Below, piece by piece: positions 31,287 through 56,019 of a stretch of 64,000 nucleotides of DNA. Source of the DNA: Posidonia oceanica (taxonomy: Eukaryota; Streptophyta; Magnoliopsida; Alismatales; Posidoniaceae); contig JAZBRS010000029.1 of assembly GCA_037176725.1 (NCBI GenBank), forward strand, positions 129,117,001-129,181,000. The letters run 5' to 3'. Below the pieces are notes generated by a model. That model worked only from the letters and a program-made list of their open reading frames with translations. It ran no database searches and was not told the origin of the DNA. A program made the position numbers and the translations under genes. Within the stretch, counting starts at the first letter, position 1; each line of letters begins with the position of its first letter.

Positions 31287-31305
31287 GTTCTCAGCTGTAT
31301 TCCTC

Positions 31306-33620: not shown

Positions 33621-33630
33621 CTTTTATAGA
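33621..33630 (-). promoter_or_regulatory. TATA box (minus strand, LTR-like)
   Basis: The minus strand reads TCTATAAAAG, with palindrome modules 63-377 bp upstream in minus direction. Confidence 0.45.
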
Positions 33631-33692
33631 AGCAGGGGAGGAACAAATATAGAATTGAATGAATTGATCAGCAAACTTTCCAATTCAGGGAT

Positions 33693-34007
33693 GTTATACG
33701 CTGGAAATCCAACACATAACGTTATCTAGTGGGAAACCAGCGTATAACGACCTTCAAAGCACAGCTACTAGGATTAAGGAATATCTCCTAATTAAAACTT
33801 GATTAAGTGTCATTAAACTAGTGTTAATTGCCTTGACCGGTCAACAGAGTCTAAAGATGGCAAAAACACGGATTTTATTTCTGACCAAATAAAGAAAGTT
33901 TGGGGCTGGCACTGGGCTCCCATGTTAGATGTTGGAAAACCAACAGCCAACGTTAGCCACTGGAAAACCAGTGGCCAACGTTATAAGCTAGGAATCCAGC
34001 TTATAAC
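33693..34007. repeat. 28-bp palindrome modules: pair, pair, single
   Basis: At 33693-33748 the outermost arms GTTATACGCTGG and CCAGCGTATAAC are perfect complements. At 33924-33979 each 28-mer folds on itself (CCACTGG-AAAA-CCAGTGG in the second). The lone 28-mer at 33980-34007 pairs GTTATAAGCT with AGCTTATAAC perfectly and shows that 28 bp is the basic unit. Confidence 0.85.
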
Positions 34008-34419
34008 ACCCTTAGTCAGTCCATCTTCCAAATTTGGTCAAGAAATGAAGAACATTCAGGCTGCTGACACTTAAAGCTTAATAAGGGATGACAATAAAGC
34101 TTTGAACTGGAGAATAGGTGTTTGGCTCAAATGTGAGAGGTCCTGGATAGAACAAAGAGTTTCTAAGAACGACCTAATGCAACAGACTGTACTACTATGA
34201 AGAGAGTGTCAAAACGAGGTGTCTACAGATTGCCCCTCCTTGAAGATGGCTTCGGCACGAAGCTGTCTACAAGGCGAGACGATACCCTTGTTTGGCGCTA
34301 CCTAGAGATCTTAAATGAAATCCAATGCCTGCTGCCACTAGACTTGGACAAGACACAATGAGGGTCGGCTAAAGAAACACGGCCAATGGGATTGCCCAAG
34401 GGGAACAAAACTAAAGACA

Positions 34420-34660
34420 CGATCACGGGGGTTGCCCGCGGGATTCAAACTAAAAGACACTGCTACGGGGGTTGCCCGCAGGGGTGAAACTAAGAGACAC
34501 TGCTACGGAGGTTGCCTACAGGAGTCAAACTAAAGACACTGCCACGGGGGTTGCCCATGTGGTCAAACTAAAGACACTGCTACGGGGGTTGCCCGTAGGG
34601 GTCAAACTAAAAGACATGGCCACGGGGGTTGCCCGTGGGAGTCAAGCTTAAGGGATGGAT
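34420..34660 (+). repeat. Tandem repeat, 38-40 bp, 6 copies, each with a hairpin
   Basis: Each unit carries (C/T)ACGGGGGTTGCCCG(T/C)(G/A) followed by 'tcaaactaaa(a)gacac'. The hairpin arms covary between copies: CACGGG with CCCGTG and TACGGG with CCCGTA. Confidence 0.85.
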
Positions 34661-35016
34661 AGCTAATGTTTCCGACGACCACTCAATGTGAATGCAGTAC
34701 AATGCACTATGCATGGATGCGTGCTGGCGGTAATGCAAAGGAGGTGATCATGATATGCAATACATGGCCCTAGATAAAGAGGTTCCTCCATCATCGCCAG
34801 CTTTAACTTGTATATCGGGTTGGCTCAGGAATTTTTCTCATCACCGAAGGCGGACTGACACATGCGTGAATGCAATTTGTCATAATCAGGTGCCCTTTCC
34901 TTGAGTGTAGCCTACACTCTCCATAGGGACTGTCGTTTCATGACACGCGGGTTACTGAGTGAGAGGTCTATGATGCTCCCAGGCAAAAGGGGATTGATCT
35001 CTTCTCTACTAGCCGC
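34661..35016. other. Spacer between arrays
   Basis: No gene. Bases 34860-34990 contain a diverged extra copy of the 112-bp repeat that follows (the 'ataatcaggtg' and 'gcctacactct' words). Confidence 0.5.
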
Positions 35017-35360
35017 GTTGGCTCTATTTATCACAATCAGATGTCTTTTCATCGAATGTTGCCTACATTCTTAACAGAGACCATCGTCTTGTGATCTGCA
35101 ATTAGTGAACGATGAGTCCACTAACACCGTTGGCTTATTTGTCAGAATCAGGTGTCCATTCATTGAATGTTGCCTACATTCTCGATAGAGACCGTCGTCT
35201 TCTGATCCGGGAGTTAGTGAGCGATGGGTCCACTAATACCGTTGGCTTTATTCGCCGGAATCAAGTGTCCTTTCATCGAATGTTGCCTACATTCTCGATA
35301 GAGACCATCATCTTTTGACCTGGGAGTTAGTGAGCGATGGGTCCACTAATTCCATTGGCT
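35017..35360 (+). repeat. Tandem repeat, 112 bp, 3 copies
   Basis: The word (G/A)TTGGCT recurs at 35017, 35129, 35241 and 35354 with 'gaatgttgcctacattct' and 'gggtccactaa' between. Confidence 0.9.
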
Positions 35361-35514
35361 TTGCTTTGTTTATCCGGTTGTGCTCCGGGTTTGCTTTGTT
35401 TATCCGATTGTGCTCCGGGTTTGCTTTGTTTATCCGATTGTGCTTCGGATTTGCTTTATTTATCCGATTGTGCTCTAGGTTTGCTTTATTTATCTGGTTG
35501 TGCTCTAGGTTTGT
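35360..35514 (+). repeat. Tandem repeat, 30 bp, 5 copies
   Basis: The unit is 'ttgctttgtttatccg' plus '(g/a)ttgtgctc(c/t)(g/a)gg'. It creates a 10-residue repeat in an open frame, which I reject as a gene. Confidence 0.9.
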
Positions 35515-35566
35515 TAAGGGACACGGCCAAGGGGATTACCCAAGGGAGTCAAATAGAAACTTAAAG

Positions 35567-36142
35567 CTTGAGCTGGATCAGTGATCCAACACTCAGAAAC
35601 AACAAGCTGGATCGATGATCCACCACTCGAAAATCAACCTTTAGGCGTTACCCAAAGGGAAAACTGAAATAAAAGGACTGAGCTGGATCGGTGATCCAAC
35701 ACTCAGAGACAACGAGCTGGATCGGTGATCCAACACTCGGAAATCGACCTTTAGGCGTTACTCAAAGGAAAAACTAAAATAAAAGATTGGGCTGGATCGG
35801 TGATCCAACACTCAGAGACAACGAGCTGGATCGGTGATCCAACACTTGGGAATCAACCTTTAGGCGTTACCTAAAGGGAAAGCTGAAATAAAAGACTGAG
35901 CTGGATCGGTGATCCAACACTCGGGAATCAACCTTTAGGCGTTACCCAAAGGGAAAACTGAAATAAAACTGAGCTGGATCGGTGATCCAACACTCGGGAA
36001 TCAACCTTTAGGCGTTACCCAAAGGGAAAGCTGAAATAAAACTGAGCTGGATCGGTGATCCAACACTCAGAGACAACGAGCTGGATTGGTGATCCAACAC
36101 TCAGGAATCGACCTTTAGGCGTTACCCAAAGGGAAAACTGCG
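35567..36142 (+). repeat. Compound tandem array with GGATCGGTGATCC palindromes
   Basis: The palindrome GGATC-GGT-GATCC (or a one-base variant) occurs ten times, each in 'gctggatcggtgatccaacactc', alternating with 'acctttaggcgttacccaaaggga' blocks. Spacing alternates between about 34 and 75 bp. Confidence 0.9.
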
Positions 36143-36149
36143 ATAAAAA

Positions 36150-36475
36150 CACTGAGGGGGTTGCCCAAGGTAAAGCTGTGATAAAACACCAAGGGGGTGG
36201 CCCAAGGTAAAGTTGCGATAAAACACCAAGGGGGTTGCCCAAGGTCAAGCTGCGATAAAACACCGAGGGGGTTGCCCAAGGTAAAGCTGCGATAAAACTA
36301 CCAAGGGAGTTGCCCAAGGTAAAGCTGCGATAAAACACCAAGGGGGTTGCCCAAGGTCAAGCTGCGGTAAAACACCAAGGGGGTTGCCCACGGTAAAGCT
36401 GCGATAAAACTACCAAGGGGATTGCCCAAGGTTAAGCTGCGATAAAACACCAAGGGGGTTGTCCAAGGTAAAGCA
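36150..36475 (+). repeat. Tandem repeat, 37-38 bp, 9 copies
   Basis: The unit is 'caccaagggggttgcccaa' followed by 'ggtaaagctgcgataaaa'. It is related in wording to the 34.4-kb array (GGGGGTTGCCC core). Such arrays next to the 3' part of Tat/Ogre elements are known sources of plant satellite DNA. Confidence 0.9.
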
Positions 36476-36537
36476 AAGGATACTTCTCCGATTATGCTCC
36501 AGGATATCCTAATTTGTTCTCGATTCTGCTTTGGATC

Positions 36538-36621
36538 GTTAGCCGTTGGATTTTCAGCGTTTAGCGTTGGACGGGCTGTTCTCCGCGTCTAACGTTGGAT
36601 GGCTTGACGGCCACGTATAAT
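36538..36621. repeat. 28-bp palindrome modules upstream of the first accessory gene
   Basis: Two clear modules, 36566-36593 (GTTGGACGG...GCGTCTAAC) and 36594-36621 (GTTGGATGG...ACGTATAAT), follow a weaker one at 36538-36565. Confidence 0.8.
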
Positions 36622-36721
36622 GACTCGATACAGACTGCCTTCCTTTCCTATTTTGGTATCACCGTTTTGGCAGTAAATCTTTGATTTTCTCTGTGTTTCC
36701 TTTCTGATGAAGGCCTCAAGG

Positions 36722-36734
36722 CCTATATTAAACC
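36722..36734 (+). promoter_or_regulatory. TATA-like box of DUF7745-like gene 1
   Basis: CCTATATTAAACC lies 100 bp after the palindrome pair and about 97 bp before the ATG at 36821. Confidence 0.5.
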
Positions 36735-36820
36735 TCTTTTTGGCTTAGATCTGTAGAACAAACACTGATCTTTCTCTCTTTATTGATTTTTGTCATTTGC
36801 AAAGAGTTGCGCTTCCTCTC

Positions 36821-38177
36821 ATGGATTTGAATGAGATCCCGCGTCATGCTTTTCGAGTGGCTGTCTTTTCTTCTCCTTCTGATATGGTGCAACTTCGGCT
36901 GGAGACTATACCTAATCACCTGGCGAACCTTTTGGTGAATGAGAAGGTAGTTTCCGCTTTTGTTATTACTTCATGCTCTTATTCTTGTATCCTTCTATTT
37001 CTGCTGATTTTCTATTCCATAGCCCTTGGCTTCTGCAAATAGCAACCGCGATTCAAAAGCCTACCAGTTGGACTAGGTTCAGCACTTCCGTTCTTGGGCG
37101 TTGAAGAAGTATCGGGAGCGCTTGGAGGAGACTGGCCTTTGTCAAGCTCTCCGTCAATTGTGGCAGCCTGTTGATTGGAAGGCACTTTTCGGCCTCTGCG
37201 GGCTGTGGAATCCTCTGACTCATACATTTTTCATCTCCTCAGGGGAGTTGACTATTCTTTTGGAGGAGCTGAGCATCCTTTGAGGCACTCAACAGGCCAA
37301 CCCGTCCATTTATTCCAGAGACGCCTATCTTTTGCCAATCGGGGTGGTGGGCTCTTTCTCTCTCTTGAAGCGCATCTTCGGCCCTGTTGTTGTGCTAGAG
37401 GACCTGGTGCTAGACGGCTGTATCAACCTCGCATCTTTGTGGAAGTTTTTCTGGAAGCAGCGCGATAGCATCCATTCCAAGGCTTCTTGCTTAGAGTGCA
37501 TCTTCGTTCTGATTAGGGGGCTAGTACTCTTCCCAAACGAAGCCCTAACCATCAGCGCCTATCATGTCGAGCTCATGTGCATCTGTGTTCGCAACCCGGA
37601 GAAATGCCTGAGTCAATCTATGTTGGCTTTTACTATTCGGGGCTTATCCAGTGCTTGTCTCAGGGGACCGTTCTTCGGCTCGCCTTTCCTTGTTCTGCGC
37701 TGGCTAGAGGAGCATTTTCTGTTGTCTTCTCTTGATGCCAACCTTCCCTTGGAGGAGTACATTCGCCGACTATGTGCCTGTGAAGTCAAGCCCCAGATGG
37801 ACTCCTTCAGTCCTCCTTCGTCATTCTGAACAGTATCTGACCCAGAGTACTTCTTGATGCTGATTGGGGCGATAGAGTTTGTGAGGTACAACCCCCAACG
37901 ATGCTTCTCAATGCTGGGCACTCCTAGGGCCATACCTCCCTTGCCTCGTTTCTCTGACATGATTCTCCTGTGCTTGAGAGACACCCCTGGGGACATCATT
38001 CAGGTATTTTATCAAGCCGGCACTTGGGACGAGAAGGGATGGAACCGTGTCCTCTCTTCGTGGGAAAGTTCGAACGCAGACCGTGAAGCCATCTCCCTTG
38101 CCACTCATGATGCATGGTATGAGGGCATGAGGCCCAAATTAATTATTGAATTTCCTACCAAGAAACAGAGGATGTAA
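36821..38177 (+). pseudogene. DUF7745-like accessory gene 1 (retroelement-associated)
   Basis: Exon 1 is 36821-36946 (MDLNEIPRHAFRVAVF..., 42 codons, donor AAG/GTAGTT). Exon 2 runs from about 37077 to the stop at 38175-38177 in one frame, with only two interruptions, TGA at 37281 and TGA at 37827. The approximately 408-residue product resembles the plant-specific DUF7745/putative transposon domain: FRSWALKKYRERL, WNPLTHTFFISSGELTILLEEL, then SLWKFFW and LIRGLVLFPNEALTISAYHVEL, FFGSPFLVLRWLEEHF, and a basic end TKKQRM. It is homologous in layout to the gene at 42.6-43.9 kb. Its function is unknown. The acceptor of exon 2 is weak. Since the nearby pol is on the minus strand, this gene is antisense to it. 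Confidence 0.7.
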
Positions 38178-38308: not shown

Positions 38309-38456
38309 GTTATACGTGGAGAATGGAGCGGCCAACGTTATACGCTGGAATAGCAGCGGATAACGTTTTAGCTTTCGAAACATTGGACTAGCTGAATCTC
38401 ACGGATAACATTTCAACTTCCTCGATGCGTTGGACGTCCCAGATCATGCGTATAAC
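38309..38456. repeat. 28-bp palindrome modules upstream of the PMD gene
   Basis: Pair at 38309-38336 and 38337-38364 (GTTATACGT...GCGGCCAAC, GTTATACGC...GCGGATAAC), then singles at 38382-38409 (ATTGGACTA...ACGGATAAC) and 38429-38456 (GTTGGACGT...GCGTATAAC) with a truncated 19-bp piece between. Confidence 0.85.
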
Positions 38457-38463
38457 ATTGAAT

Positions 38464-38604: not shown

Positions 38605-41600
38605 ATGCAACGGTTCGGCAAGGTGTACATGAAACCGACGAAACGTGCTCGAACGGGACTTGGGCCGTCGTCCCTCGGCGAGCTTGGGGCAGCTCCGACA
38701 GAAACTCCGGTGGTGACAGAGGTGGTGAGAATGGTTGTAGAGGGCACGGCTGTGGTGGGCACGGCTGTGGAGGCTGAAACGGCCGAGGTGGCGCCTGTGG
38801 AAGCGGCAGTGACGGCTGTGGAGGCTGCAGAGGTGGTGGAGACCACGGAGGCTAAGACAGCGTCTGAGGCCGTGGTGGTGGGTTCGACTACTATGGAGGC
38901 CGGGGTGGCAGTTCTGGCTGCTGTGGTGGGTCCAGATACTATGGAGGCTGGCGAGGCGGCTGGCGGCGAGGCTGCGAAGGCAGGGGCGAAGCTGGGTTCT
39001 GGTTCCAGCAGCTCCTTCAACTACGAGGACTCGAAGGAGGAGTCCGAGGAGACAGTCTTGGAGATGAGGTCCGAGGCTGGTTCGGACGAGGTGGGCCCTG
39101 TGGTGGAGCCGGATGCGAGGCTGGTCGATCCCCTCATCGTGCAGTTCGGTGAGGATGACGGTTGGTGGTGGAACATCGTGGATTTTGTCCGATGGGAGGC
39201 GGAGGGCGGCACGAGAGATCCCTCGGACTACTGGCGGGATCAGATCCCTCGAGACGAGATGCAGGCGTCAGGACCGCATAGGGATGCATCCCGATTGGAG
39301 TATGCTACCGCCACGTTAGCCTCGAGAGGGCAGGTAGTCACTTTTCACTCTTCCTTTGTTTGATTTAATCATTCAGCTTGACTAACAGCCTTTTTTATTT
39401 TTCCAGAGTCGAGCACCTGCCGTGACCTGCTGCTACTGGGGACAGGTCTGCCGGTCCTACGTCTTGCTGACTCCCTTCCAACAAGAGCGTCTAGATCAGA
39501 TGGGATTCGGACACTTCCTGTCCATCCCGGACTTCCCCCTTCGTCCGATGTTCTTGGAGGCCGTTGTGGAGCGATGGAACTTCCGCACTAGCTCGATCGT
39601 CATGAGGGCGGGCGAGTTCATTATCTCTCTTGAGGACATGGTGCGGCTAACCGGTCTATGGATCACAGGTCGACCGGTGACGGGGCCGGTGCACTTGGAC
39701 TACTCAATCTTGGCACGGCAGCTCGTCGAACAACAGTTGGCCATGAGCGGACAGCAGCTCGTGGTGATTACCTCCGTTGTTCGCTGGGTCAGTGCTTTGG
39801 CAGAGACGGTGGTTGGATTGGGCGTGGAGGCCGATCAGCAGTTGCGGGCCTTCCTACTGGTGCTGTTCGGAGAGGTGCTCTTCTCGCACGCCTCCTTGAA
39901 GTTGTCTGCGTGGTTCCTCCCCCTCTTGGCGGACTTGGAGCGAGTGGGAGAGTATGCTTGGGGTGCGGCTAGCTTGGCGTACTTGTACTCCACCCTCTTC
40001 CACTTTATAGATGGCAGTTCTCGCCAGCTAGGCAGGAACTTGCCATTTCTTCAGGTAAAAGCACATGCTTAAATTTGCAATCTTCAAAAATATTGCTGAA
40101 TATTATGTGTTGTTGAAAGTTTCCTCGTTTTCTATGCAGATGTGGGCGTGGGACCACTTTGCTTTCTTGTGTCCTACCCCTCCTCCAGTTCCTCCGACGA
40201 GCCTACCTTTCCCCCGAGGATTATTCTGGGCTGATGCTGAGCAAGCCCTCGAGCCTGCGGATGACAACTGCTATGTCGGTCATCTGTTTTTCGAGTTGCT
40301 GGTCCTGGCTCAGGTAACTTGCCTCTTTTGACTTTTCAGCTTATGTTTATTCATTTATGCTGCTTGCTGACACGCATTGCTCCTTTCAGGTAGTCTGGCG
40401 TCCATATGCTGAGGAAGAGCATGCGGACGTTCTTGAGATTGCCCGTGACTGGGCAATTTTTGACCGAGACGTGTGGATCTACTGTTGGAACCACTGCCAT
40501 TTCCAGCAGATTGGCAGGGCGCTACGACAGTTGGGGCGTCGGCAAATTCAGCCTCTACCTCCCCCTCACAGGATTTGGCGAGAGACTCGGGGTGGAGGCA
40601 GCCATGCTCGTCACTGGGTGGATGTCTACAGTCCGCAGCTCCTGGACTGGACTCGCTGTGGTTCTCCCGCTTCGACAGACGCGATAGAGGAGGATGAGGT
40701 GGTGTGGGTCGAGAGTTCTCTTCTTTGATGGTCTTCCACCGGTCCCACTTCCTTGGGAGCGGGAACCTTCCTTTAGGGGACATAGATCCCAGGGAGGCGG
40801 TGATGTCCCATGCAGCTCTGCTAGGTGAGGCGCGGTCCTATCGAGCCCAGCTGGAGATAGCGGTGAGCTTCTGATTTTTAATTTGTAACTTGTTGATTCA
40901 CATTTGATAACTTGCTGACTTGCTTTCCTTCCTTCGCAGCTCAAGGCGGCAGATGAGCAGGCTCAGCGGGAGCATAGTCTAACTCAGCAGCTCTCCGCTC
41001 TGACCGGAGAGATCGAGCACCTGCGTGCTTCTACCTCTCAGGTAGCTTCATATTTCTTGTAGCTTTTACAGTTTGATTATGAATTGTGGCTGACTGTATT
41101 TCCTTTCTTTGCAGCCCTCAACTAGCACCGCCCCTCCTCCGGACCATTCAGAGGAGATTTCCTGTCTCCAGGATAAGGTATAAATGTCTTTATTTATTTT
41201 TCCTTTCTGCTTTTAGCTAAATTCCTCTTGATTCTGACATTACTACTTGTAGGTTGCTTATCTAGAGAGTGAACTGAAGGAGCAGGATGGTCACTTCATC
41301 GCTACTAGCTCTGTTGGGATGTTGGAGGAGCTGGAGGGGACTGTTGCTGCTAGGGATGCTCAGATTCAGGAGCTGGAGCAGTAGGTTGCTGACAGAGATA
41401 CCGAGATTGCCCTGGCTCAGGCGGTATGATTTGATTCGATGCTCCTTTATGTCCTTTATGTCTTTGCTTGTGTCTGATATTCTGGCTGCTTCCTTTCGCA
41501 GGGCACGGTGGGGGTCACCTCTCAGCTTGAGTTTGAGTTAGGGCATTACCGAAGGTTTGCCTTCATGATTGGTGCCATGCTCGGGGTGCCTGTTCCTCCT

Positions 41601-41675: not shown

Positions 41676-42242
41676 TCGCCTCGACCTCCTACCGCTCCTT
41701 CTACGGCTCCTCCTTCAGCTCCCGAGGGTGAGGGAGAGAGTGCTCCTTAGCTTTCTTGTACTTCAGGGGTATGCCCCGGTGATTTTGTAGAACAACTATA
41801 TATATATATTTTTTTTGAAATGATATGGATTTTTGCACACTCAGTAAACTTGTCAAATATCTCTTTTTAAATACCTTTCTCGGAGTTAAAATGAGCTTAA
41901 GCGACCATTATAATAAAGTAATGGCTCTTAATTCAGATTAACTTGAAACCAGCATATTCATGTGAAATAGTATGTAAATGACATAGTTATAAAGAATGAT
42001 TTCACTTGGAAGCTTTAAAATCAAGTTTTGAAGTTGTCGGCGCTTAAGCGACCCCTTAACTTGATGAAATGAACAATCAGTGATTCTGAATGGCTCGGAT
42101 GTCTAAAAAATATGAAACCAACGCTCACACGTGTATTTCAACTCAGTTAAACCTCTGGGACTGATAAAAATGGTTCATGCAGCATAATTACAGATTAGGG
42201 GGTGATTCAGCCAAGTTTAGTGACTTAAGTCACTGATAAAAC
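41676..42242. other. 3' flank of the PMD gene and spacer
   Basis: No gene. A short TA run lies at about 41799-41808, and the word 'cttaagcgacc' occurs near 41898 and 42047. The stretch ends in the palindrome modules of the next gene. Confidence 0.5.
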
Positions 42243-42374
42243 GTTACACGCCTCATCTGGCGCGGCCAACGTTATCCACTGCATTTTCTGCGTCCAACGC
42301 CGAAAAGCTGATTTAAACGTTATATGCCTCACATGGCACGGCTAACGTAGGACACACTTGATCTCGCGTACAAC
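42243..42374. repeat. Two palindrome pairs upstream of accessory gene 3
   Basis: 28-mers at 42243-42270, 42271-42298, 42319-42346 and 42347-42374, in two abutting pairs 20 bp apart. Examples of arms: GTTACACGC...GCGGCCAAC, GTTATCCAC...GCGTCCAAC. Confidence 0.85.
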
Positions 42375-42484
42375 GAAGCGAGTCCAAAATCCTTTCTTTC
42401 CTTTCTTGTTATTCGCTAATCTTCTAGAATGTTTCGAAATTTTCTCAATGCCCGCGTGGGGAGATTTCCCACGATTCTTCCTAT

Positions 42485-42497: not shown

Positions 42498-42590
42498 TGG
42501 CTACCCCTTGGAATTTGTGCACACTTGCCCCTTGCATCCTTGCTTATTTTCTCTTGACTTGTGCTTCTTCCTCTCTTCTCCCCTGTTCTC

Positions 42591-43935
42591 ATGGCTTCTA
42601 GTTCAGTCCCCAATGTTTTCATGAACAACAAGAAGGGAGCTGCAAAACCTTTGGAGGAGATTGAAGGGCATATGATGTCCCATATCAAAGCGGGGAAGGT
42701 ATGATTTTCCTTCATTGATCCTTCTAGTCTCTCTTGTTCTTCATGCTTTTAACTTTATTTGCAGGAAATCCTCAACTTCACAAAGACACCATGCTTTGAT
42801 AATGACTTCCCTTACTATTCTCCTTGGGTGAAGGACTTCGTACTTTGGGCTCAGGAAAGGAAATCCGTTTTGACCCGTTCACGCTTTGGTGGACTTCTGG
42901 ATTTATTGGACACAACCTTGGATTGGCCTCTGCTCCATGCCACATGCGCCTTCTAGAGTCCTGAGACTCATACTTTCTTCTTTGGGGGCTGTGAGATGAC
43001 GATCCTAGTGGAGGATGTTCATGGCCTGCTTGGTGTGACTCATATTGGAATGGCCCAACCAGATATTGATTTTCCATTGCCATGCAGGACAACGGATATG
43101 TAGATATTCATAGACCGTATCTTCACTGCTCTGCCTACTTTCCCAATGATTAGAAGTCGCCGACTCAACTTGGCGCATTTATACTACAGCTTCCGGCGGA
43201 TCGAGGACTCTGCCTCCTAGGATCAATTGCTGGTGTGTCTACATTTATTGATTGGAGGCCTCACCCTATCTGTCTCCAGAGACTTCTCCTTGGATGTCTA
43301 TCACACTGAGTTCTTGATAGGCCTTACTGAGCATTTTTGGCATTCTCCTTCAGTCGCCATCCTTGCAGCTACATACCTTGGTTTGACCAGTGTCTCAACT
43401 AGAGGGAACTTTGTCGGCTCTCCTTTTCTTCTTTCCAGATGGCTACAGGTCCATTTCCCGAGGCTCAAGCCTGTGAGGACTGATTTGATTGAGGAAAGGG
43501 TTTGCTCTTTGTCTTCTGCCCCTATTTATATCTTTTCACCTTCCATGCCCTTCTATCATAAGCACCAAGCGCAAGGTTCTTCAGTTGAGTTGGAGCTGAT
43601 AGGGCCCACTCACTTTGTGGTGTACAACTCCCATCGCTGTTTTGAGATGGTGGGGCAGAAGAAAGGGGTGTCGCCTCGGCTAAGTTCTATTCCTCGTATT
43701 CTGACTCGGGAGCGTGGCTTCCATCTGATGCAGTGATGGTGTACTACATCCGGGCTCTTTAGTCGTCTCTGGATAGCCATGATGATTTAGATGGGACCTC
43801 AGCTACTCCTTTGACTTGCTGCCTACTATGGGAGGATGCGCACTGGAGTTGGTATTCAAAGCTACCGTCCAAACCCGAGGAGTGGGTTGAAGCAACCGGC
43901 GTGCTGTGCAAGAAGAGGAAGAAGACAATTAGATA
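42591..43935 (+). pseudogene. DUF7745-like accessory gene 3
   Basis: Exon 1 is 42591-42698 (MASSSVPNVFMNNKKGAAK..., 36 codons, donor AAG/GTATGA). Exon 2 starts at 42765 after TTTGCAG. The frame of exon 2 shows WVKDFVLWAQERK, LDLLDTTLDWPLLHATC, ETHTFFFGGCEMTILVEDVHGLLGV, LLIGGLTLSVSRDFSLDVYHTEF and GNFVGSPFLLSRWLQVHF, the same succession as gene 1 at 36.8-38.2 kb. It is a pseudogene: TAG codons at 42954, 43101 and 43218, a frameshift near 43735, and one more TAG shortly after. The shifted frame ends in a basic tail with KKRKKTIR before TAG 43933. The function of the family is unknown. Confidence 0.7.
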
Positions 43936-44126
43936 GGCAATTATTGTAATTCATGTCATTTTTGACCCATGTACTTTTATTTTCAAGGAAATAAATATCT
44001 CTTTCATTTTTTTATCCTTGTTCATGTGCTTTGGACTGTTTTGGGCTTAGAAATACTCCCTAATGATTTCAGCATGGGATCAAGGCCCCTCTTTAAGAAT
44101 TCTGCAGCTTAAGTCACAGTTAAAAC

Positions 44127-44253: not shown

Positions 44254-45670
44254 GCGTCTGAACTATTTTTCTGTACAATCTTGGCAAATTTGTTATTCCA
44301 TCTAGGGGTATTATTGCCCCTAGGCCAAAGTGACCTCTGAAAACTCAGATACATCCTTAACATGGCTTCAAAAAACTTAGGAATAACATATATACAATGC
44401 ATGCTTTAAACCAACCTAATGCTATGAAAGAAAAAGTCTTAATGCAATGAAAAAATAAGGGAAACTTAGGTTTTGGATAACAAGCATTGGCCTCAGCTTT
44501 GTTGTCTAAAGATGGTATACCTAGCGAGGGATTGTTTCTTCTTGAAATTGCAATCTTGGCTCGTAGGCGAATACCAAGTGACCATCCTGAGTAGGAGGGG
44601 TCAAGTACGACACAGAGTCGTAAAATTTTCTAAATTTTTGCATCATCGGCCTTACTTGTTATCAATTTTATGAGGTGATGTTGGTTGGGTAGATTTTACT
44701 CTACTCACTATATTTGGATTTTTGATCTTTTGCCATTTTTTGGATTTTTGGTTTCATCATTTTTTGGATTTTTGACTTTATCATTTTTTTGGACTTTATG
44801 GTTTTATTATTTTTTTGGAATTTTAGTTTTATCATTTTTTTGGAATTTTGACTTTATCATTTTTTTGGATTTTTGGTTTTATCTTCTTTTTTTTTGGAAT
44901 TTTGTCTTTATCTTTTTTTTTTGATTTTTGACTTTATCATTTTTTTTTTGGATTTTTGTAGGAGAAGAAGAATCTTCCAAGAAGTTGGGAAACAAGAGAC
45001 CTCATGGTTGGAAAACCATGACAGTTTGGTCCCTTGTGCATCTCAGAGCCATGGATACTTCAGGCTTGCTTTGGCACTTAACTACCCCTAGACCTAGGCT
45101 TCTGCCCCTTACCTCTAAGTGTACAGTGCAGGATGTGGGTGGAAGGAAGGTCAATGTCCTATCCTAAGATTTCAGCTAAAGATTGGAAGCCTATACCCCT
45201 CCCAGTTCAAGGTTGATCCTTACTACGCTCAATATTTTCCCAGTTTTTTAGTTTTGACTCCTGGATAGCTCTTTGTTGCCTTCTTTTCCATTCTCTTACT
45301 TTTCTTGCACATGGACAGCTTCTTTGCTGCCTTCTTTTCTTTTCTTTTCTAGGTATTTTGGCAAGTAGTCTCACCCCGTTTGAGTGCTCGGTCAATGGAT
45401 ACTCGTTCCTTGACGAACCGAGACACTCTTCTATTTGGTACACTCCCCTCTTTTTTGCGTTTCTAAGTTTTGGCCTTAGATACCTACCCGATTTGTACTA
45501 GGGTAACGTGTCTGACTCAAGGGATGTGTGCGGACTTGTTGTTCATGAACTGGGAGGGGGCTTCTTATGATTTGCCTCTATGTCAGTGTTGGACCATTTT
45601 CCCTCTTTCTCCCACAAGGTGTTTGTGAGGTGAGGTTAAGGTATGACTCTTAGACTTTGGAAACAGTAGG
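44254..45670. other. Non-coding spacer with T-rich minisatellite
   Basis: No gene. Bases 44700-44960 are a minisatellite of about 26 bp built from 'tttttggatttttg' and 'ttttatca' words, roughly ten copies. In minus orientation this is the 3'UTR just after the integrase of the Tat-like element. Confidence 0.7.
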
Positions 45671-45674
45671 TGCT

Positions 45675-46890
45675 CTAGCACGGATACTCTAATGGCTCAG
45701 TATGCATGTCAAGGGTAATACCTCTTGAGGTGCAATGCATTACAGGATATTCAAGCCTAGTGCCATCCTCTCTGGCCAAATAATAGGCATTGCCCGGATA
45801 TGCCTCAACCACCAAGTATGGTCCTTTCCATCTTGGTCTCAGTTTCCCATGCTTGTGAGGAAGGATTTCTTTGAGGACCCATTCACCAATATTGAATTTA
45901 TGTTCAATTACTTTCTTCTTATAAGCTCTTGCAATTCGTTCTTGATAGAGGCGTGCATTCTCAACTGCTCGCAACCGCTTCTCATCTAGCAAATCTAACT
46001 ATAGACTTAATAATTACCTCTTATCCTCGGCAGTTATCTCATCATCGAGTTGTACTCTAGATGAGGGGACCATGATCTCAAATGGGACTACTGTCTCCAT
46101 ACCATAAGTAAGCGCAAACGGGGTTTGACCCGTAGGCATTCTTATGGAGGTTCAATAGACCCATAAGGTATCAATTAGCTTATCTGTCCAATCATGTCCC
46201 TTGACTCCTCCTACCATTTTCTTAAGGATTCGGATTAACGTTTTATTAGTAGCTTCAGCTTGCCCATTACCTTGGGGGTAATATGGCAATGAATGATGCA
46301 ATTCGATCTTAAATTTCTTACAAAGCTTTTTGAAGTCTTGGGATACAAAGATTGCGCCATTGTCTGCTATTAGTCTCTTTGGAACTCCAAACCTTGAGAG
46401 GATATTTTCCGCACGAACTTGCAAAGATTTGAAGCTTTGATCTCGGTGAACGATTCTGCTTCAGCCCATTTGGTAAAGTACTCAGTGGCTGTGAGTATGA
46501 ACCTATTCTGCTTTTCGATGTCGAAGGGTCCTACGACATCAAATGCCCACATGGAGAAAGGCCACACTGCTTGAGTTGGGTTTAGCTCTGATGTTGGTGC
46601 ATGTATTTTGTCTACATGAATCTGGCATTGTCTGCATCTCTTCACCTTATTTGCACAATCTGCCTCCATTGTGGGTCAGTAGTATCCTCTGCGCAGTATC
46701 ATTTTTGCCATGAACTAAGAATTGATGTGTCCTCCACATATTCCTTCATGCATTTCCCCTAGGATTACGCCGACCTCCTCGTAAGTGATGCAGTGCAGCT
46801 CTATTCCGCTGAAGGACCTTTTGAAAAAGATTCCAGCTCGCACGAAGTATCTTGTGGCCATCCTTCTAACCGCCTCTCTGTCTTGTGAAG
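45675..46890 (-). pseudogene. Tat-like Gypsy integrase (minus strand)
   Basis: In order on the minus strand: zinc-finger end CRRCQ-like CRQCQIHVDKIHAP, first Asp in WAFDVVGPF, TATEYFTKWAEAES, second Asp in RLIADNGAIF, Glu in YYPQGNGQAEATNK, and a C-terminal part ARAYKKKVIEHKFNIGEWVLK...GKLRPRWKGPYLV. The D-D-E residues are present. A frameshift near 46400 and stops near 46150 and 45995 break the frame. The wording is that of Tat/Ogre-type Ty3/Gypsy integrases. Confidence 0.85.
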
Positions 46891-46894
46891 TTGC

Positions 46895-47401
46895 TTAATC
46901 GGGGAAGATCTTGTCTTGGATGTAGTTCTGGATGTCAAAGAACCATGGGTTCCCATCATCCTCTATGTTGTAGCAAACTTCAAACTTAGCTGCTTTTGAT
47001 TCCCTAATTTTCTGTCTAAGCTCCACGGCCCATGGCTCAGTTGAGTCAATGGCGGATGTCCCGTGTTGCTGTACCATGATTGTTTGTTCTTGGACATTGA
47101 TGGGGAACTTGATCGAGGAGGCCAATGAAGCGAGGGCATCTGCTAGCAGGTTATGACTCCGGAGGGTATGGACATATACTACTTGTTGGAACCGGGCCAA
47201 TAGTAGGCGAGCAATGCCTTTGTATGTTTCCAGCCTTGGGTTAAGGGTTCTATATTTGTTCAAAATTTGTCTTAGAACCAACTGGGAGTCCCCAATGAGT
47301 TTTAGCCACTTTGCCCCTAGCTCTAGTACTAGGCGTAATCCAAGGATCAAGGCCTCGTATTCTGCAACATTGTTGGTATTCGCAGCGAAGTTTAACTGCA
47401 C
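46895..47401 (-). pseudogene. Additional RNase H (aRNH) of a Tat-like element
   Basis: The frame reads LNFAANTNNVAEYEALILGLRLVLELG, LIGDSQLVLRQIL and HNLLADALASLAS. This is a plant/archaeal-type RNase H with the E of AEYEA, the D of GDSQLV and the D of ADALA, an extra domain that marks the Tat lineage of Ty3/Gypsy. It lies between the normal RNase H and the integrase, as expected. Confidence 0.85.
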
Positions 47402-47518
47402 AGCTCGGGGGATGAGAACTCCTTCTAGGGTGAGGAGTGCTACTCCGATGCCTGCCCCTTGTCTGTTGAGTGCTCCATTAAAGTAAAGAGTCCACTGTTG
47501 AGTGGGAGACTCGGCAGC

Positions 47519-47880
47519 TCATATTTCCAGTATTTCTTCATCGGGGAAGCCTGTTTGGACTGGTTGATAGTCTTCTATGGGTAATCCTGCCAAGTGATCT
47601 GCTATGGCTTGCCCCTTGACCGCTTTTTGGGATACATACCACAGGTCAAATTCAGTGAGGAGGAGCAGCCATCTTGCCAACCTTCCAGAGAGGACTGGCT
47701 TCTCGAACATTTATTTGATTGAGTCCATCTTGGAGATGTAACAGACTTCATGGGCCAGGAAGTAGTGTCTCAGCTTTTGGGATGCCCATAGCAAGGCCAG
47801 ACAATGCTTATCTATGGCCGTATACTTCTCTTCATAGTCCGGGGTCGTGTCCGTGTTAGTAGGGGCTCGCTGCTACAGTA
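47519..47880 (-). pseudogene. End of Gypsy RT and RNase H
   Basis: Minus-strand frames read EEKYTAIDKHCLALLWASQKLRHYF, then, after a stop near 47709, KPVLSGRLARWLLLLTEFDLWY and KGQAIADHLA, the usual end of RT/RNase H. The sequence stops abruptly near 47880, so the rest of RT, protease and gag of this minus-strand element is missing. Confidence 0.85.
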
Positions 47881-47884
47881 GGAG

Positions 47885-48298
47885 TCGAAGCTCTCAATGC
47901 ACCACTTGTTTACTGCCTGGACCTTGGCTAGGATTTAGACGGGCACCTAATTTCTATCAATGAGTCGGAGACCTATATACCCCTATGAGTACCTGGAGTA
48001 AACGACCAATCAGGACACACTTAGAATGGTGAGAGAGCGCATACTAGAAAGCATTCATGCCACCTTAATAACATTTGCATTTGTCTTTTTGAGACTAATA
48101 CTTCTTTTGTCGTGTTGTACAGGATTGTGAGTGAGTTCCTTAGTCAAAGCTCGAGTCGTTCCTTCCCTGATACCCCTATAGCGACATATTCTTGACCATC
48201 TTTCCTCGAGTTATTCGTCGTTTCTGACGATAGCTCATCGTAGACCTCGTCCTCTTGGTTTTTGTTGCAGTCCTATTCGCATTCGCTCACGGTTAGCC
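47885..48298 (+). other. 5'UTR of plus-strand Tat-like element
   Basis: No gene. The stretch from about 47990 to the ATG resembles the reverse complement of 1450-1770, so it is the leader of the same family. The LTR itself was not found to its left; instead it meets the truncated minus-strand pol at about 47880. Confidence 0.55.
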
Positions 48299-49670: not shown

Positions 49671-49675
49671 GTTAG
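49671..49675. other. Target site duplication of the solo LTR (left, decayed)
   Basis: GTTAG here corresponds to GTCGG at 50949-50953. The difference is one CG to TA change, as expected from CpG deamination. Removing the LTR and one copy restores the gag frame across the site (EYV then GRWCTFALHVR). Confidence 0.75.
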
Positions 49676-50948
49676 TGATGTAAATTTTAATTAACCGCAA
49701 GTGTACGGTGTACTATGTAGTACATATGCAAAATACGGGTCGATCCCACAGAGAATAATGTTTAAAAACAAAGACTTATTATCAACTATTGAAAGGGGGG
49801 TTGAGATTGATGATGATTAAGAACTACAAATAGAAGATGTAATCAAACTAATTAAAACAAACCTAGGGCTTTGAATCCATTTATGTAAAATCCAATATGC
49901 ATGATTAAATCCACTCTTGTCTCTCTTCATGATCTAAATAGTTTACTCAATGGTTCTTATCCTAACAAGCATAACCTATATGCAAAGCACTATAGATTAT
50001 CAAGTCCTAAGATAAAATCACACAAAATAAACTAAATCAAATGATATACGATAGATCTGCGATTATAAACACAACCCCAAAGTATTCTTCCCCAAGCATA
50101 GATTAAAAAGATGTTATCAATATTAATCTATCAAAGTTTATCGAATAATGAATGATCCATGTCATATACATCCAGTCTACATAATCATAGCATTTTAAGC
50201 AAGAGAAGACTATAAGAGACTTAATCACAACACATGAACATACATAAACTTCATCTAAGCCCTAGATCTAAAAACTTAGCTACACTTGATAATGGAAAAT
50301 ATCAAAATAAAAGAAAGGGAAGGAGAAGAGCAAGACATAATTAATATAAAGAAATGAAATTGCATTAATAAAATACCTTGATTACAGAAAATAGCTTGAA
50401 GAGCTCTACAACAATGGAGGAAGAAAGCTTAAGCCTAATGTGGAAGATTAAGGATCCCTTAGGGTTTACACAATGAGTCCCTTTTATAGGTTTACAAGGC
50501 TTGGCCGTCACATAAACAAATCCGGATACCAATGAGGAAACTAAATTTTAATTACAAGATATTTCCAAGATATTTCTGTGTTTGCCAAAGACGGAGTCAA
50601 CATGATCTCCTCTAGGCGCCTGGGAGGCGCCAATTGTGCACTTAGGCGCCTTCTAGGTGCCAGCCTGGCCTGAGTTGGCTCCAACTTTGTTGCTCAGGTT
50701 ATCTTATCTTACTCATCGTGTTCACACATGTGGAAAAGATATATTTAATATCTTACACGGATTTTCATTTCTTTTATCCTTGGATTTGCATTTCTTTTTG
50801 TCTTTTATCATTTTTCCTCCTTCTTTTCCTCTTTTCTCTTCAGGTCCAAAGTTTCTGCACAAATTGCACAAAATACCTCGAGTAATATTATTTATGAAAA
50901 AAAGAGATAAATATGGGTATAAAATATGTAAGAATAATGTGCTAATCA
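49676..50948 (-). mobile_element. Solo LTR, 1273 bp
   Basis: It begins TGATGTAAAT and ends GCTAATCA in plus reading, is flanked by a 5-bp duplication, and has no coding sequence or second LTR, so it is a solo LTR. The 'ccgcaagtgtacgg' and 'gggtcgatcccacagag' words are common in Athila-like and related plant LTRs. A minus-strand TATA box (CCTATAAAAG, 50481-50490) with AGGCGCC palindromes 120-180 bp upstream suggests minus orientation. It interrupts the Tat-like gag. Confidence 0.85.
50612..50661. repeat. AGGCGCCT palindrome cluster
   Basis: TAGGCGCC, AGGCGCC, TTAGGCGCC and TAGGTGCC follow one another within 50 bp, and neighbouring copies can pair as well as fold on themselves. Confidence 0.75.
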
Positions 50949-52152: not shown

Positions 52153-53384
52153 TGTTAGGATCGAGTGGCTACTCTAGAGGGGGGTGAATAGAGTATTTAA
52201 AATTTATGCGGAATTTAAACAATTTTAAACACACAATGAGTAATATTCAAATAAATGATCTAAGTTAAGCAATTTTAATATTAAACTATAACAAGCATAG
52301 AAGGAGGTAAGAGGCAATGAGATATGACACAATAGATATATTGTGGTTCAGCCAACCTGACCTAGTCTACTCCCAGATCCCCTCTAGAGTTCCCTTAATC
52401 TTATCAACGTAAATACACTTACTTGATGAAGATATAAGCTTCCTCTGCAAAACCCACAGAGCTCTTCTCATAGCTAGAGAAATATTCTCCTTGATTACAA
52501 CCATCTTACAAGCAGTATCTCTTTTGATCTCCCAACAGAATTTTCACTAGGAATCTCTTTTTGGCTATCTTGGGAGTATTCTTACTGAATAAGATCTTTG
52601 AGCTTAGCAAATGGGTAGTACAAGATAGTATATGTGTTGGTGTCCCTTAGGGGGTCCCTGGGGGTCCTATTTATAGGTATAGCAAGACCCAAAGATGTGT
52701 CTAACGGATAGCTCAACGTTCACAAACGACTAGTATAAACGGTATTCCGAAATCAATCGGTCGACCAGAAATCTCCCACGTTCGACTAAATCGGTATTCA
52801 GTTTTGAAATGGTGTTCCGATATTAATCTTAGCTGTAGATCACACTAGCGGTGTACCGGTGGGATTCGGTGGGTTAGACTCTTTCCAGATTTCGATGTTC
52901 CGATATAGATCGGTTTTCCGTTTAGGCTCAATGGTCACATTTAAATGAATATTTCACTGTAGCCCTGTATCCCCAGATAACGGTATACCGGTGAGAATCG
53001 GTTTTCCGTTTCTGACCTAACTTCTAAACTTTTAGGATTTTCTAAGTGTTTTCCTCAGGTTTAGGTATGGATATTTTCTTAATTGTTTTAGGATGTCTTG
53101 GGAGATCTTTTACATCCTTTCTTAGAGTACAATAATGAAGAAAAAATTGCATACAAATTATTACAACATGAATAATATTGTCTTGGCTTTTCTTCCTGTC
53201 TTCATGTAGTCTCTGATGTAGAATTCTCTTCTGCATTCCATGCTTTACTTGGTATTCTTCAAAGATTGACTTCCCTCAGATATTCCACCTATCTTAAAAT
53301 CAACTGAAGAGTATTTCCTCAAGTAATATCATTAGTTCTATTTGTTATCATCAAAATTAAATATATCATAGATATTTTTCAACA
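52153..53384 (-). repeat. SIRE-like LTR (3' LTR in element orientation)
   Basis: 1232 bp. A minus-strand TATA box CTATAAATAG lies at 52667-52676. CGGT-NN-ACCG type words lie upstream of it (minus direction) at 52740-53010: CGGTATTCCG, CGGTCGACC, CGGTGTACCGG, CGGTATACCGG, CGGTTTTCCG. Confidence 0.92.
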
Positions 53385-54283
53385 ATCTCCCCCTTTTTGA
53401 TGATGACAAAACTATATATAAACATATTCATAACTTTCTCCGATTATCAATAGGCATAAAACAAATTTGATAAACTAATAAACATTTGAGTAATTTTCAA
53501 ATTTATATAAATGCTCCCCCTTACTATAAGCCTAGATAAGCATAGATTATATTGATACTTTCAATTTAATTTTCATGCTCTCCCTTACTATAGCCTTTAA
53601 TTCAAAATATGTGATGTTAATTTTTCTCTCCTTTTTGTCATAATACAAAAAGTTTCAACTTTAACCATAATATATTTATAATTAGGACTTTATACCATAT
53701 TCAAACTAAGAAAATGTTCCAAACTGGAATAATTTTCTGTAATTATTTCATACATCAAAAGAGAAATACCAAAAAAAAATTTATATTAATCAAATGAATG
53801 TCAAATTTGTCAATCAAGTATTCCTTTGAGATATCATGAGTAATCTGAACTCAGAATTTGATAACCATTCAAGATATCAATAAGATATTTTAATTTCCTT
53901 CCTTTTCAATTTAAGTTAACACTATTACTATGAATATTATTCATTTTTAAGTAATATGTATAGAATCTAAGATCATTCATATAACTCAACAATTTCCTTT
54001 TATAGCATAACAACACATAACACAAAATCATATAGGCAACATTCCATGTCATATAAGAAATGATACATGCCATATATAATCAGTTCCATATAATTCAAAT
54101 AGATAATGTTACAATATTATCCTAATATATTTGACCATTTACATGCCAGAATATGAAGAAATACATAACAGTAGAAGAGAGAAAATAACCCAATTATTGG
54201 CTAGAGGGTCGAGGCGGATGTCCTTGGAGATATCTCAAAATCTCCACGTGTTGATCTTCCATTGTCTTCTCAATTCTCATCTG
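53385..54283. other. SIRE-like 3' untranslated region
   Basis: AT-rich, no gene. The polypurine tract is at 53385-53400 on the minus strand. Confidence 0.7.
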
Positions 54284-55292
54284 CTAATCATCCACACTGT
54301 TTTGCCAGTTGTCAACTTTGTTTTGCCATTCACAGTTGGCCGCAAAGTTTGACTCTTGACGGAGTTTGATCTCTTCTATTTCTTTTCTCAATTTTTCTAT
54401 TTCTTCTTTATTATTATCTTCTTCTTCGTCTTCAGAACTCTCAACTTGAGGTACTTGAGGAAGATGGACGGACACTTTTAAGAGCATTTGCTCTCTCCAA
54501 AGCTTTCTCCATTCTATCTATGGCGATACTATCTATAGGACGGGTTCTAATAGGAAGGGATGGCTCATTATCTTATGGTACATTAAAGTGAATGAACAGA
54601 TATGTAAGGAGAGGTCCATAAAATAGTTTGGTTTTGATATGTATCATATGGTGGATTATGACATGAGCCCAATTTAAAATGATCTTTTTCATGATTGCAT
54701 ATACTGCCTTACAAGTCATGCTACTTAACTCATCAAAATGTCTTTTCTTTTGAATGATGTTAGCAGCAAGAATATATGCGATTATTCTAGCTATCCTAGA
54801 CAATTGATTTATTTTGTTGGGAATAAAGGTACTCCTTTTATTTAAAGAGATGGTTTTATTTATTTCAGGATAAGTTAAACCTAATTCCTCAATAGATAAA
54901 GTAATGTCTATTCCTGAGGATGGGATTTTTAGCACCTGACCTATAAGAACCTCATCAAAGGTCATGTCCATACCTAACAGGTAGGAATCATAAGTGTTAG
55001 CTGAAATTACTAAATTGGCATAGAATTGTGATACTAGGTGTGGATAGTACTTATGATCGCCAATAGATGCTAAAAATGGAGTTAAAGACTGAGCTTGAAA
55101 GGGAGAGCCATTGTCACCCAAAGTGTCGAAATTCACTTTCCGGCCGGTGAGGACTTCTCTGTTGGCAAATCGCTCCCAATGAGCCTTCATGCTTCCTCGT
55201 CGACGATGGTCATCTTCGGAGGAGTCGTCGGGGTGAGTGATGGAGGGAGCTTTCCTTTTGGGCTTCTGAGCAAAACTTTTCTTAGGTGCCAT
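54284..55292 (-). pseudogene. SIRE accessory ORF (plant transposon protein-type, coiled-coil tail)
   Basis: From ATG 55292 the frame gives a basic start (MAPKKSFAQKPKRKAP), an acidic HPDDSSEDD, then SMKAHWERFANREVLTGRKV, YPHLVSQFYANLV, LGMDMTFDEVLIGQVLKIPSSG and INQLSRIARIIAYILAANI. This is the 'putative plant transposon protein' domain seen in accessory ORFs of many plant retroelements. TAA near 54573 interrupts it; in the region beyond, 54284-54487 (another frame) codes for a Glu/Lys coiled coil (EEDNNKEEIEKLRKEIEEIKL). It occupies the place of the env-like ORF of SIRE elements, but I see no signal peptide or fusion region. It is preceded by its own TATA box and palindrome swarm. Confidence 0.7.
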
Positions 55293-55450
55293 TGATGAAG
55301 AGGAGGACGGAGAGGCGACGGCGAAGGGTTTTTGAGAAGGGAAGAAGGAGGACGGAGTGGCGCCGGAGGAAGGAGGAGGATGCTAGGGCTTTCGAGCGGA
55401 GGAGGAGGCTTAGGGCTGGAAAGGAGTGTCGGCTGAAAACGGAAGATGGG

Positions 55451-55460
55451 GTTTATATAG
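55451..55460 (-). promoter_or_regulatory. TATA box of SIRE accessory ORF
   Basis: The minus strand reads CTATATAAAC about 160 bp before ATG 55292. A swarm of CGGT...CCG inverted repeats lies just upstream (55510-55990). Confidence 0.55.
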
Positions 55461-55509
55461 AAAATTTTAAACCCTAAGTTTTACAGCGGAAAAAAAATGA
55501 TTTTAAAAT

Positions 55510-55990
55510 GAAAAACGGTATACCGAAAACTAAATGGTATTCTGGTTTGTTCGATATAAAATAATAATTCAGTCTACCGGAGAAAAATGCTCTTCCGAAT
55601 CAGGGACTTTCGGAACACCGATTTAAATCGGTTCACCAAAAGAATCTATATAACTTTTGTTTCACATACAAATCGGTAGACCGGAACAAAATGTTCTTCC
55701 GAAATAGGGAATTTCGGAAAATCGGTGAATATCGATTCACCGAAAAATCTGTAGAATTTTTGTTTTTTGAATAACCGGTAGACTGGACCAAAATGCTCTT
55801 CTGAAACAGGGATTTTCGGAAAATCGGTCCAAAATGATCTTCCGAAACAGGGATTTTCGGAAAATTGGTCAAAAAATGAACTTCCGAAACACGGATTTTC
55901 GGAAATCTGGACAAAATTGGTGATTCAAAAAATCTGTCAGATTTATACAGAAATCGGTAAACCGATGACTTTCGGTATACCGAATTTGAT
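55510..55990. repeat. Swarm of CGGT-NN-ACCG and TTCCGAAA...TTTCGGAA inverted repeats
   Basis: Words such as CGGTATACCG, GTCTACCGG, CGGTAGACCGG, ATCGGTAAACCGAT and repeated 'cttccgaaa(t/c)aggga(a/t)tttcggaaa' fill 480 bp. The central part is loosely tandem with a period near 110 bp. Confidence 0.8.
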
Positions 55991-56019
55991 CTCTATTCAA
56001 AAAAATTTTATTTTAATTT

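Follow-up and report, generated by a model that had tools for sequence, protein, structure and literature searches.

Arrays of converging GTT-NNN-CGC half-sites as candidate protein-binding sites in long terminal repeat retrotransposons of Posidonia oceanica

A 64-kb stretch of the Posidonia oceanica genome (64,000 nucleotides; assembly GCA_037176725.1, contig JAZBRS010000029.1, positions 129,117,001 to 129,181,000 of the forward strand; hereafter the window) consists of nested long terminal repeat (LTR) retrotransposons, whose non-coding DNA contains arrays of a short and strictly spaced palindromic module. Each module is a dyad, 28 or 29 bp long, in which two 9-bp half-sites (GTT-RDM-CGC) converge across a spacer of 10 or 11 bp, and neighbouring dyads usually abut with zero gap. 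The GTT and CGC of the half-site form a fixed frame common to the families, the middle triplet is biased by family, and the arrays are located in LTRs and around genes for plant mobile domain (PMD) proteins. Based on these sequence features, we propose that the GTT-NNN-CGC arrays are probably clustered candidate sites at which a sequence-specific protein, as a dimer or as pairs of dimers, would bind non-coding DNA of LTR retrotransposons, including at least one Ty3/gypsy element.

The spacing of the half-sites is rigid. Of GTT..AAC pairs in which 8 or more of the 12 arm positions are paired, the window contains 13 at a length of 28 bp and at most five at every other length from 14 to 60 (the 28-bp units begin with GTT and end with AAC). 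A sample of 200 kb was also taken as 20 stretches of 10 kb (the L-numbered loci) at fixed steps from two contigs, irrespective of content; its commonest 8-mer inverted repeats, called free of any prior, are GTTGGACG and TTGGACGC, mostly at lengths 29 and 27. When window and sample were scanned for GTTRGWCGC with one mismatch, 11 converging pairs were found at 28 bp, 20 at 29 bp and at most one at other lengths up to 55, while 18 pairs at 56-58 bp represent double modules. Diverging pairs peak at 18 bp (n = 16), the junction between abutting modules. The reversed word, scanned with one mismatch in the same DNA, produced neither a converging nor a diverging peak; with two mismatches it produced a direct-repeat peak at 27. 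A position weight matrix (PWM) scan of window and sample returned 43 dyads of 28 bp and 31 of 29 bp, of which the window accounts for 36 and the sample for 38, and at most six at each other length from 20 to 40, except for 18 matches at length 35, all of which contain a 28-bp module plus 7 adjacent bases. Thirty-six of the 56 gaps below 400 bp between successive modules are exactly 0, 12 are 172-219, six are 15-64 and two are 325-383 bp. In a triplet-blind test for GTT/CGC over 292,758 bases, 18 dyads were found, eight at 28, ten at 29 and none at the remaining 29 lengths of 18-48, with four of the 18 coming from loci that had been fetched for holding a word or dyad.

The module is also very abundant in the whole assembly (2.96 Gb, 80 contigs), for which repeat counts are lower bounds. 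The pattern GTTNNNCGC-N10-GCGNNNAAC, with 12 fixed bases, has 65,123 sites against five for its reversed control. The GGA dyad, GTTGGACGC-N{0,28}-GCGTCCAAC, has 97,263 sites against none for the reversed control and a chance expectation of about one, and all 54 listed sites are 28 (18) or 29 bp (36) long, though lengths of 18-46 were permitted. The ATA dyad, GTTATACGC-N{0,28}-GCGTATAAC, has 4,226 sites (control 0), all 50 listed being 28 bp long; the GGA and ATA counts are mutually disjoint, and both are overlapped by the count of 65,123. The word GTTAGTCGCC occurs 28,648 times on both strands together (control 686). Extrapolation from 38 modules per 200 kb (score of at least 12, two contigs) suggests a genome total of the order of half a million modules. 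In a collection of viral contigs, four stretches match the GGA dyad.

Within the fixed frame, the 100 listed triplet-blind dyads use 19 of the 64 possible triplets, mostly R-[GTA]-[AC]. Two half-sites of one locus have the same triplet in 66% of pairs, and half-sites of different loci in 25%. GGA, mostly in 29-bp dyads, is found at L009, L019 and window 9-12 kb, GAA at 28 bp at L016 and AGA at L021, while ATA, GGA and other triplets are mixed around the PMD genes. In 33 of the 100 listed dyads the left triplet equals the right one, vs 14 after shuffling (maximum 26 in 5,000 shuffles), an excess that is weak after removal of GGA/GGA (17 of 84 vs 9.3, highest shuffle 20). The array at window 33.7 kb and that of L016 have flanks that align on both sides and different triplets, and the arrays themselves no longer align by blastn. 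Similarly, an orthologous half-site is GTTATACGC in L023 and GTTGTCCGC in the window, GTT and CGC being kept and the triplet changed.

Dyads are carried by a PMD-bearing Ty3/gypsy element, by a gag-bearing element on contig C1 and by an LTR element without Pfam domains (L033). Both LTRs of L033 carry them (aligned parts 535-1556 and 8054-9075, 95.6% identical), with TATAAAT at 928 and 8447, the same offset as that of the TATA box at window 35-44, and with five of six and four of five spaced pairs at 25 bp; at window 104-394, the TAGNCGCC-N9-GGCGNCTA dyads have a 25-bp core (29 bp with flanks), and three of four spaced pairs are at 25 bp. L033 is 8.5 kb long or longer; no Pfam domain was found on its plus strand, nor on its minus strand inside the LTRs, and its match to a gag protein of the window is weak (31.6% over 95 residues, 8.9e-06). 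In the C1 element, both members of a probable LTR pair (105.6-107.1 and 115.4-116.9 kb; pieces 93-94% identical) carry dyads in groups of 1-3 spaced by about 200-240 bp except for a single gap of about 710 bp, and gag is the sole domain found on either strand of 107-114 kb. Within 115.2-122.5 kb, the TATA-type word nearest on the strand of this element starts some 2.4 kb upstream, at 119106. The array at window 9518-10749, with groups of 1-2 dyads starting at 9518, 9761, 9992, 10222, 10453 and 10693 (about 235 bp apart), adjoins homologous leader sequence and resembles the arrays of the C1 LTR pair; plus-strand TATA words near the groups at 9-12 kb are taken to be on the wrong strand for that element.

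A first-pass annotation of this DNA had described nine separate swarms of short inverted repeats, each 5' of a TATA box and with a word that differs by family. The clusters exist where it had placed them, and the dense words in U3 regions and before accessory genes are far above chance and recur in other copies. An inverted-repeat test, in which 425 bins of 300 bp were each compared with 20 dinucleotide shuffles and the 45 highest by moderated z were listed, found a local excess at 55651-56100, 33601-34050, 50551-50850 and parts of the LTRs of a SIRE-type element, and a weak one at 36601-36900 and 42151-42450; the bins at 104-394 and 38309-38456 are outside the 45 listed, and the strongest ones, 10651-10950 and 10501-10800, lie at a place that the annotation had not cited. 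As separate objects, the nine swarms were not upheld: 104-394, 33693-34007, 36538-36621, 38309-38456 and 42243-42374 are one dyad object, and 50612-50661 is one weak patch. The triplet is indeed family-biased, but GTTGGACGC, GTTATACGC and GTTAGTCGCC have a common GTT-NNN-CGC frame and 28/29-bp geometry, and these five places therefore follow one grammar with a variable triplet. A scheme of family-independent words was rejected, the GGA, ATA and AGT classes having a common frame and spacing. The arrays at 36.5, 38.3 and 42.2 kb all precede PMD-type genes and are therefore not unrelated designs. To the places it listed, of which those five, both SIRE LTRs and 55510-55990 were confirmed, are added the arrays at 9518-10749, 11602-11659, 31230-32482 and 44127-44253, which it had missed.

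The proposed position 5' of TATA boxes holds for part of the arrays. TATAWAW is found within 400 bp outward of 16 of 32 clusters (window plus sample) vs a random mean of 7.6 (P 0.0005), and the stricter TATAAAW near 10 of 32 vs 5.2 (P 0.022), while [CG]TATAAA[AT] shows no excess near the 32 clusters (2 vs 1.6); because neighbouring clusters are not independent, this statistic is weak evidence.

Several observations weigh against the proposed binding-site function or narrow it. The other 16 clusters lack TATAWAW within 400 bp outward and several arrays are not promoter-proximal, so that promoter design is one use of the arrays and not the rule. The PWM dyad is present in just six of the 20 sample loci, one of which, L012, is weak. 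No PMD domain was found on either strand of L033 or of the C1 gag-bearing copy, and thus PMD is absent from some carriers; an array upstream of the PMD gene is absent from L023, and the 10 kb of L020 contain a PMD gene but no dyad. Training and scanning with the PWM used the same DNA, and the frame itself was suggested by window and sample; the genome counts and the triplet-blind test are PWM-free. The listed genome-wide sites are the first ones on contig C1 and no random draw, and the copy number results in part from amplification of whole elements.

If the arrays are bound as proposed, two subunits, separated by about two helical turns on the same face of the DNA, would contact each dyad, and abutting dyads would permit cooperative loading. 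A bound array may then open or activate the LTR or accessory promoter, as an enhancer or by anti-silencing, and clusters distant from TATA may be enhancers or chromatin-opening targets. As to the predicted binder, a host factor and an element-encoded accessory protein are about equally probable.

A host transcription factor, to whose site the element families converged or which they inherited, is possible, though we put this form of the proposal at clearly less than even. In its favour, the frame is common to carriers of different coding content, one of them Pfam-less, but family-biased triplets and a likewise family-biased choice of 28 or 29 bp are less expected from one host factor. We also know of no plant factor with a GTT-NNN-CGC composite site, which we count against it.

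It is rather doubtful that an element-encoded PMD protein binds the dyads and counters silencing in a VANC-like manner, triplet and protein co-evolving by family. Arrays precede all three PMD-type genes of the window and follow the third, and the family bias of the triplet would fit such co-evolution. PMD-type gene 3, with 33.4 bits against the Pfam PMD profile (cut-off 34.9), is antisense to and 3' of a Ty3/gypsy pol, and the arrangement is repeated in L023 at 81-85% DNA identity. One frame of this pol contains RT_RNaseH (1.2e-10), RVT_3 (3.7e-15) and then an integrase zinc-binding domain, and an extra RNase H domain is reported to mark the Tat lineage (PMC10508981); a PMD accessory ORF (open reading frame) is reported for 57% of Ogre elements (PMC6317226). 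Below-cut-off matches to DUF1985, a domain of VANC anti-silencing proteins (PMC5735166), were found in three of the four PMD proteins scanned, namely gene 2 (0.094) and two of three relatives (0.0016 and 0.00098), which suggests a possible remote kinship of PMD with the VANC domain. VANC targets are, in the excerpts consulted, likewise arrays of short motifs that differ among related families. However, VANC21 motifs lie there in one orientation and are not dyads, and the carriers without a detected PMD, together with L020, tell against a PMD binder. AlphaFold models of the PMD and SIRE accessory proteins (predicted local distance difference test scores of 39.7 and 43.4) were unusable, and the hhalign comparison of their profiles gave no match, so that a single fold for the two was rejected. 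For Arabidopsis PMD proteins, the one DOWN-motif instance in the excerpts is CATGCAGTTT, and the chromatin contact of the complex was an open point in the part of PMC9899485 consulted. The DUF1985 matches of P0001, P0006 and window 39386-40072 cover overlapping parts of the domain. At window 42500-44100, one frame matches the PMD and DUF7745 profiles over overlapping residues, and these two Pfam families may therefore overlap.

A wider scheme of combinatorial self-recognition among Ogre/Tat-type retrotransposons seems to us an unlikely one. PMD proteins, as distant VANC relatives, would be dimeric readers of GTT-NNN-CGC dyads, the triplet and the 10/11-bp spacing would form a family 'address', non-autonomous elements would carry the address to exploit the reader, and the host silencing proteins MAIN/MAIL1 would descend from such readers.

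That the dyads are mobile palindromic micro-elements, or products of neutral tandem duplication in which copies of one ancestral unit spread in repeats, is improbable. The modules do abut in tandem in a repeat-rich genome where retrotransposition has multiplied them, and the spacers are still somewhat biased, above all those of the 28-bp GGA class, where position 13 reaches 0.97 bit, the 29-bp GGA class having little spacer information (at most 0.54 bit, position 10). Recent copies of a unit would have the same spacer, but 49 distinct dyads are found among the 54 listed GGA sites (five duplicates removed) and 98 among the 100 listed triplet-blind ones, and the frame persists where the flanks align by blastn and the arrays no longer do (window 33.7 kb vs L016). 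Action of the palindromes as DNA or RNA hairpins is most improbable and was rejected: the dyads are inverted repeats, complementarity reaches the spacer edge in the ATA and GAA classes, and the first and fourth spacer pairs of the 29-bp GGA class are complementary in 18 and 15 of 31 (duplicates removed), but the other three pairs are so in only 7-11 of 31, asymmetric triplets are common, several arrays lie upstream of TATA, and within families no paired positions covary at P < 0.05, matches being no better than with shuffled partners (lowest P 0.060, position 11, 28-bp class). Because the spacers vary and paired positions lack within-family covariation, we read the dyads as protein half-sites and not as hairpins or mobile palindromes.

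The boxes of the SIRE-type Ty1/copia element of the window belong to another system, which uses its own word and has been described before. The 2010 work on repeated-motif (RM) boxes of Sireviruses is reportedly that of Bousios and co-workers. RM boxes are palindromes that have CGG-CCG as their core and precede a conserved TATA box; further boxes lie 5' of the envelope gene (PMC2829016, in excerpt). The SIRE copy likewise has a palindromic CGG-CCG core before its LTR TATA, CTATAAATA, and extra boxes 5' of its accessory ORF, which matches Transposase_32 and no known envelope; taking this ORF as the counterpart of the envelope gene, we infer that the copy is an instance of RM boxes. As the first-pass annotation had proposed, U3 and accessory promoter use the same word: CGGTNNACCG has 2 + 2 sites in the LTRs, four in the 550 bp before the accessory ORF, none in the other 6.4 kb of internal SIRE and three in window 1-52000 (the word is palindromic, and both-strand totals were halved to give counts per site). 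ACCGATT occurs three times per LTR and six times in the 550 bp before ORF 54573-55382. A SIRE copy at L027 of about 80% identity keeps two CGGTNNACCG and one ACCGATT in its LTR vs two and three in those of the window. The word AGGCGCCT at 50612-50661 was rejected as a further array, since this one 50-bp patch within a solo LTR has neither the common spacing nor the dyad geometry.

Other systems were compared with the GTT-NNN-CGC arrays as far as the excerpts of the cited papers go. Like the RM boxes, the arrays consist of multi-copy palindromic dyads just before an LTR TATA, the second RM cluster lying 5' of the envelope gene where present (PMC2829016); unlike these Ty1/copia boxes, they lack the CGG-CCG core and have a GTTRDMCGC half-site, a 10/11-bp spacer and zero-gap abutment, also away from TATA. 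Like the VANC target arrays of Arabidopsis VANDAL elements (PMC5735166, PMC10398659), they are dense, short, family-specific motifs in non-coding element DNA with turnover in repeats; VANDAL elements, by contrast, are DNA transposons with motifs in one orientation and a binder known by chromatin immunoprecipitation and electrophoretic mobility shift assay, whereas the half-sites here converge. Ty3/gypsy-borne PMD genes, and PMD proteins tied to transposon silencing and a promoter motif, are known from Gypsy elements and MAIN/MAIL1 (PMC5418596, PMC7156037, PMC9899485), but no DNA binding by PMD is reported in the excerpts of these papers, and the DOWN-motif instance differs from the dyad. Retand elements have antisense ORFs (TRP28) and tandem repeats between pol and the 3' LTR, for which a DNA-binding regulatory role has been suggested (PMC11963269); they share the antisense accessory gene downstream of pol, with TRP28 instead of PMD and, in the excerpted text, without a dyad grammar. 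Among the papers listed by a literature search for LTR palindromes, only PMC2829016 was close and the GTT-NNN-CGC dyad was not met in the text seen, and the papers listed for four exact words were unrelated, as judged by title and abstract start. The GTT-NNN-CGC dyad is a real, strict and very abundant composite site and a candidate variant of the palindromic regulatory boxes of LTR retrotransposons.

The window and its resident elements are given in Table 1. The SIRE-type element is inserted in a gag-bearing element, and the same gag is also split by the solo LTR. Window 1773-7715 resembles, by alignment to L015, a 5.9-kb solo LTR of a gag-bearing family, in the same orientation within another copy of that family; around it, the host copy has its leader at 7716-9290 and gag at 777-1772 on the minus strand. 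A segment of 600-700 bp occurs three times (7033-7693, 8710-9303 and 12794-13415), once inverted, at 70-73% identity, and L009 and L015 have similar inverted arrangements. At 61800-64000, a frame of the gag-bearing element matches G-patch with 21.6 bits, slightly under the 22-bit cut-off. Dense tandem repeats (30-, 37-, 73-, 109- and 113-bp units) fill 34369-36474 between two divergent dyad-bearing stretches. The RY-type words CATGCA/TGCATG have 44 of their 72 window occurrences in 4000-14000, the region that also holds the densest dyad array.

Table 1. Dyad arrays, PMD-type genes and resident elements of the window
Feature	Positions	Strand	Remarks
Class-2 dyads (GTTAGTCGCC word), about 197-225, 269-297, 366-394	197-394	minus	Upstream of TATA 35-44; same layout in LTR pair L033
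Densest array, 11 dyads, nearly all GGA-type	9518-10749	none	
Two abutting 29-bp dyads	11602-11659	none	
Two abutting dyads, 29 + 28 bp	31230-31286	none	
Two abutting 28-bp dyads	31670-31725	none	
Two abutting 28-bp dyads	32427-32482	none	43-98 bp downstream, not upstream, of minus-strand TATA 32525
Five 28-bp dyads (33693, 33721, 33924, 33952, 33980)	33693-34007	minus	Upstream of TATA 33628; three above PWM threshold
Three abutting 28-bp dyads	36538-36621	plus	Before PMD-type gene 1; TATA at 36722 is a weak TATATTAAA
PMD-type gene fragment 1	37173-37829	plus	PF10536 7.8e-05 over 37173-37289, below cut-off; ORF 37284-37829
28-bp dyads 38309, 38337, 38429	38309-38456	plus	End 10 bp before TATA 38466
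PMD gene 2	39386-40072	plus	PF10536 1.2e-28, well above cut-off; DUF1985 0.094, below cut-off
Four 28-bp dyads (42243, 42271, 42319, 42347)	42243-42374	plus	Upstream of TATA 42488
PMD-type gene 3	42915-43736	plus	PF10536 3.7e-08 and DUF7745 1.8e-04, both below cut-off; antisense to gypsy pol
Four 28-bp dyads 3' of PMD gene 3	44127-44253	plus	Partly kept in L023
Ty3/gypsy pol	44800-47900	minus	RT_RNaseH and RVT_3 (two RNase H-like domains), integrase zinc-binding domain
Solo LTR in gag gene	49673-50948	minus	AGGCGCCT patch 50612-50661; TATA about 50481
SIRE 3' LTR	52153-53384	minus	CGG-CCG repeated-motif boxes before TATA
SIRE accessory ORF	54573-55382	minus	Transposase_32, PF20167 9.3e-17
CGG-CCG boxes and 41-104 bp tandem repeats upstream of SIRE accessory ORF	55510-55990	minus	
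SIRE 5' LTR	60373-61593	minus	CGG-CCG boxes; 95% identical to 3' LTR

With more than 100,000 copies of a rigid composite site (97,263 GGA and 4,226 ATA dyads) in one plant genome, the arrays form a large and directly testable candidate cis-regulatory system, and they extend palindromic promoter boxes from Sireviruses to Ty3/gypsy elements. With its frame fixed and its triplet biased by family, the half-site would let the co-evolution of a DNA reader and its targets be read from sequence, and the dyad provides a concrete DNA target for asking what plant mobile domain proteins do. If a factor binds the dyads, one factor would address many transposon LTRs at once.

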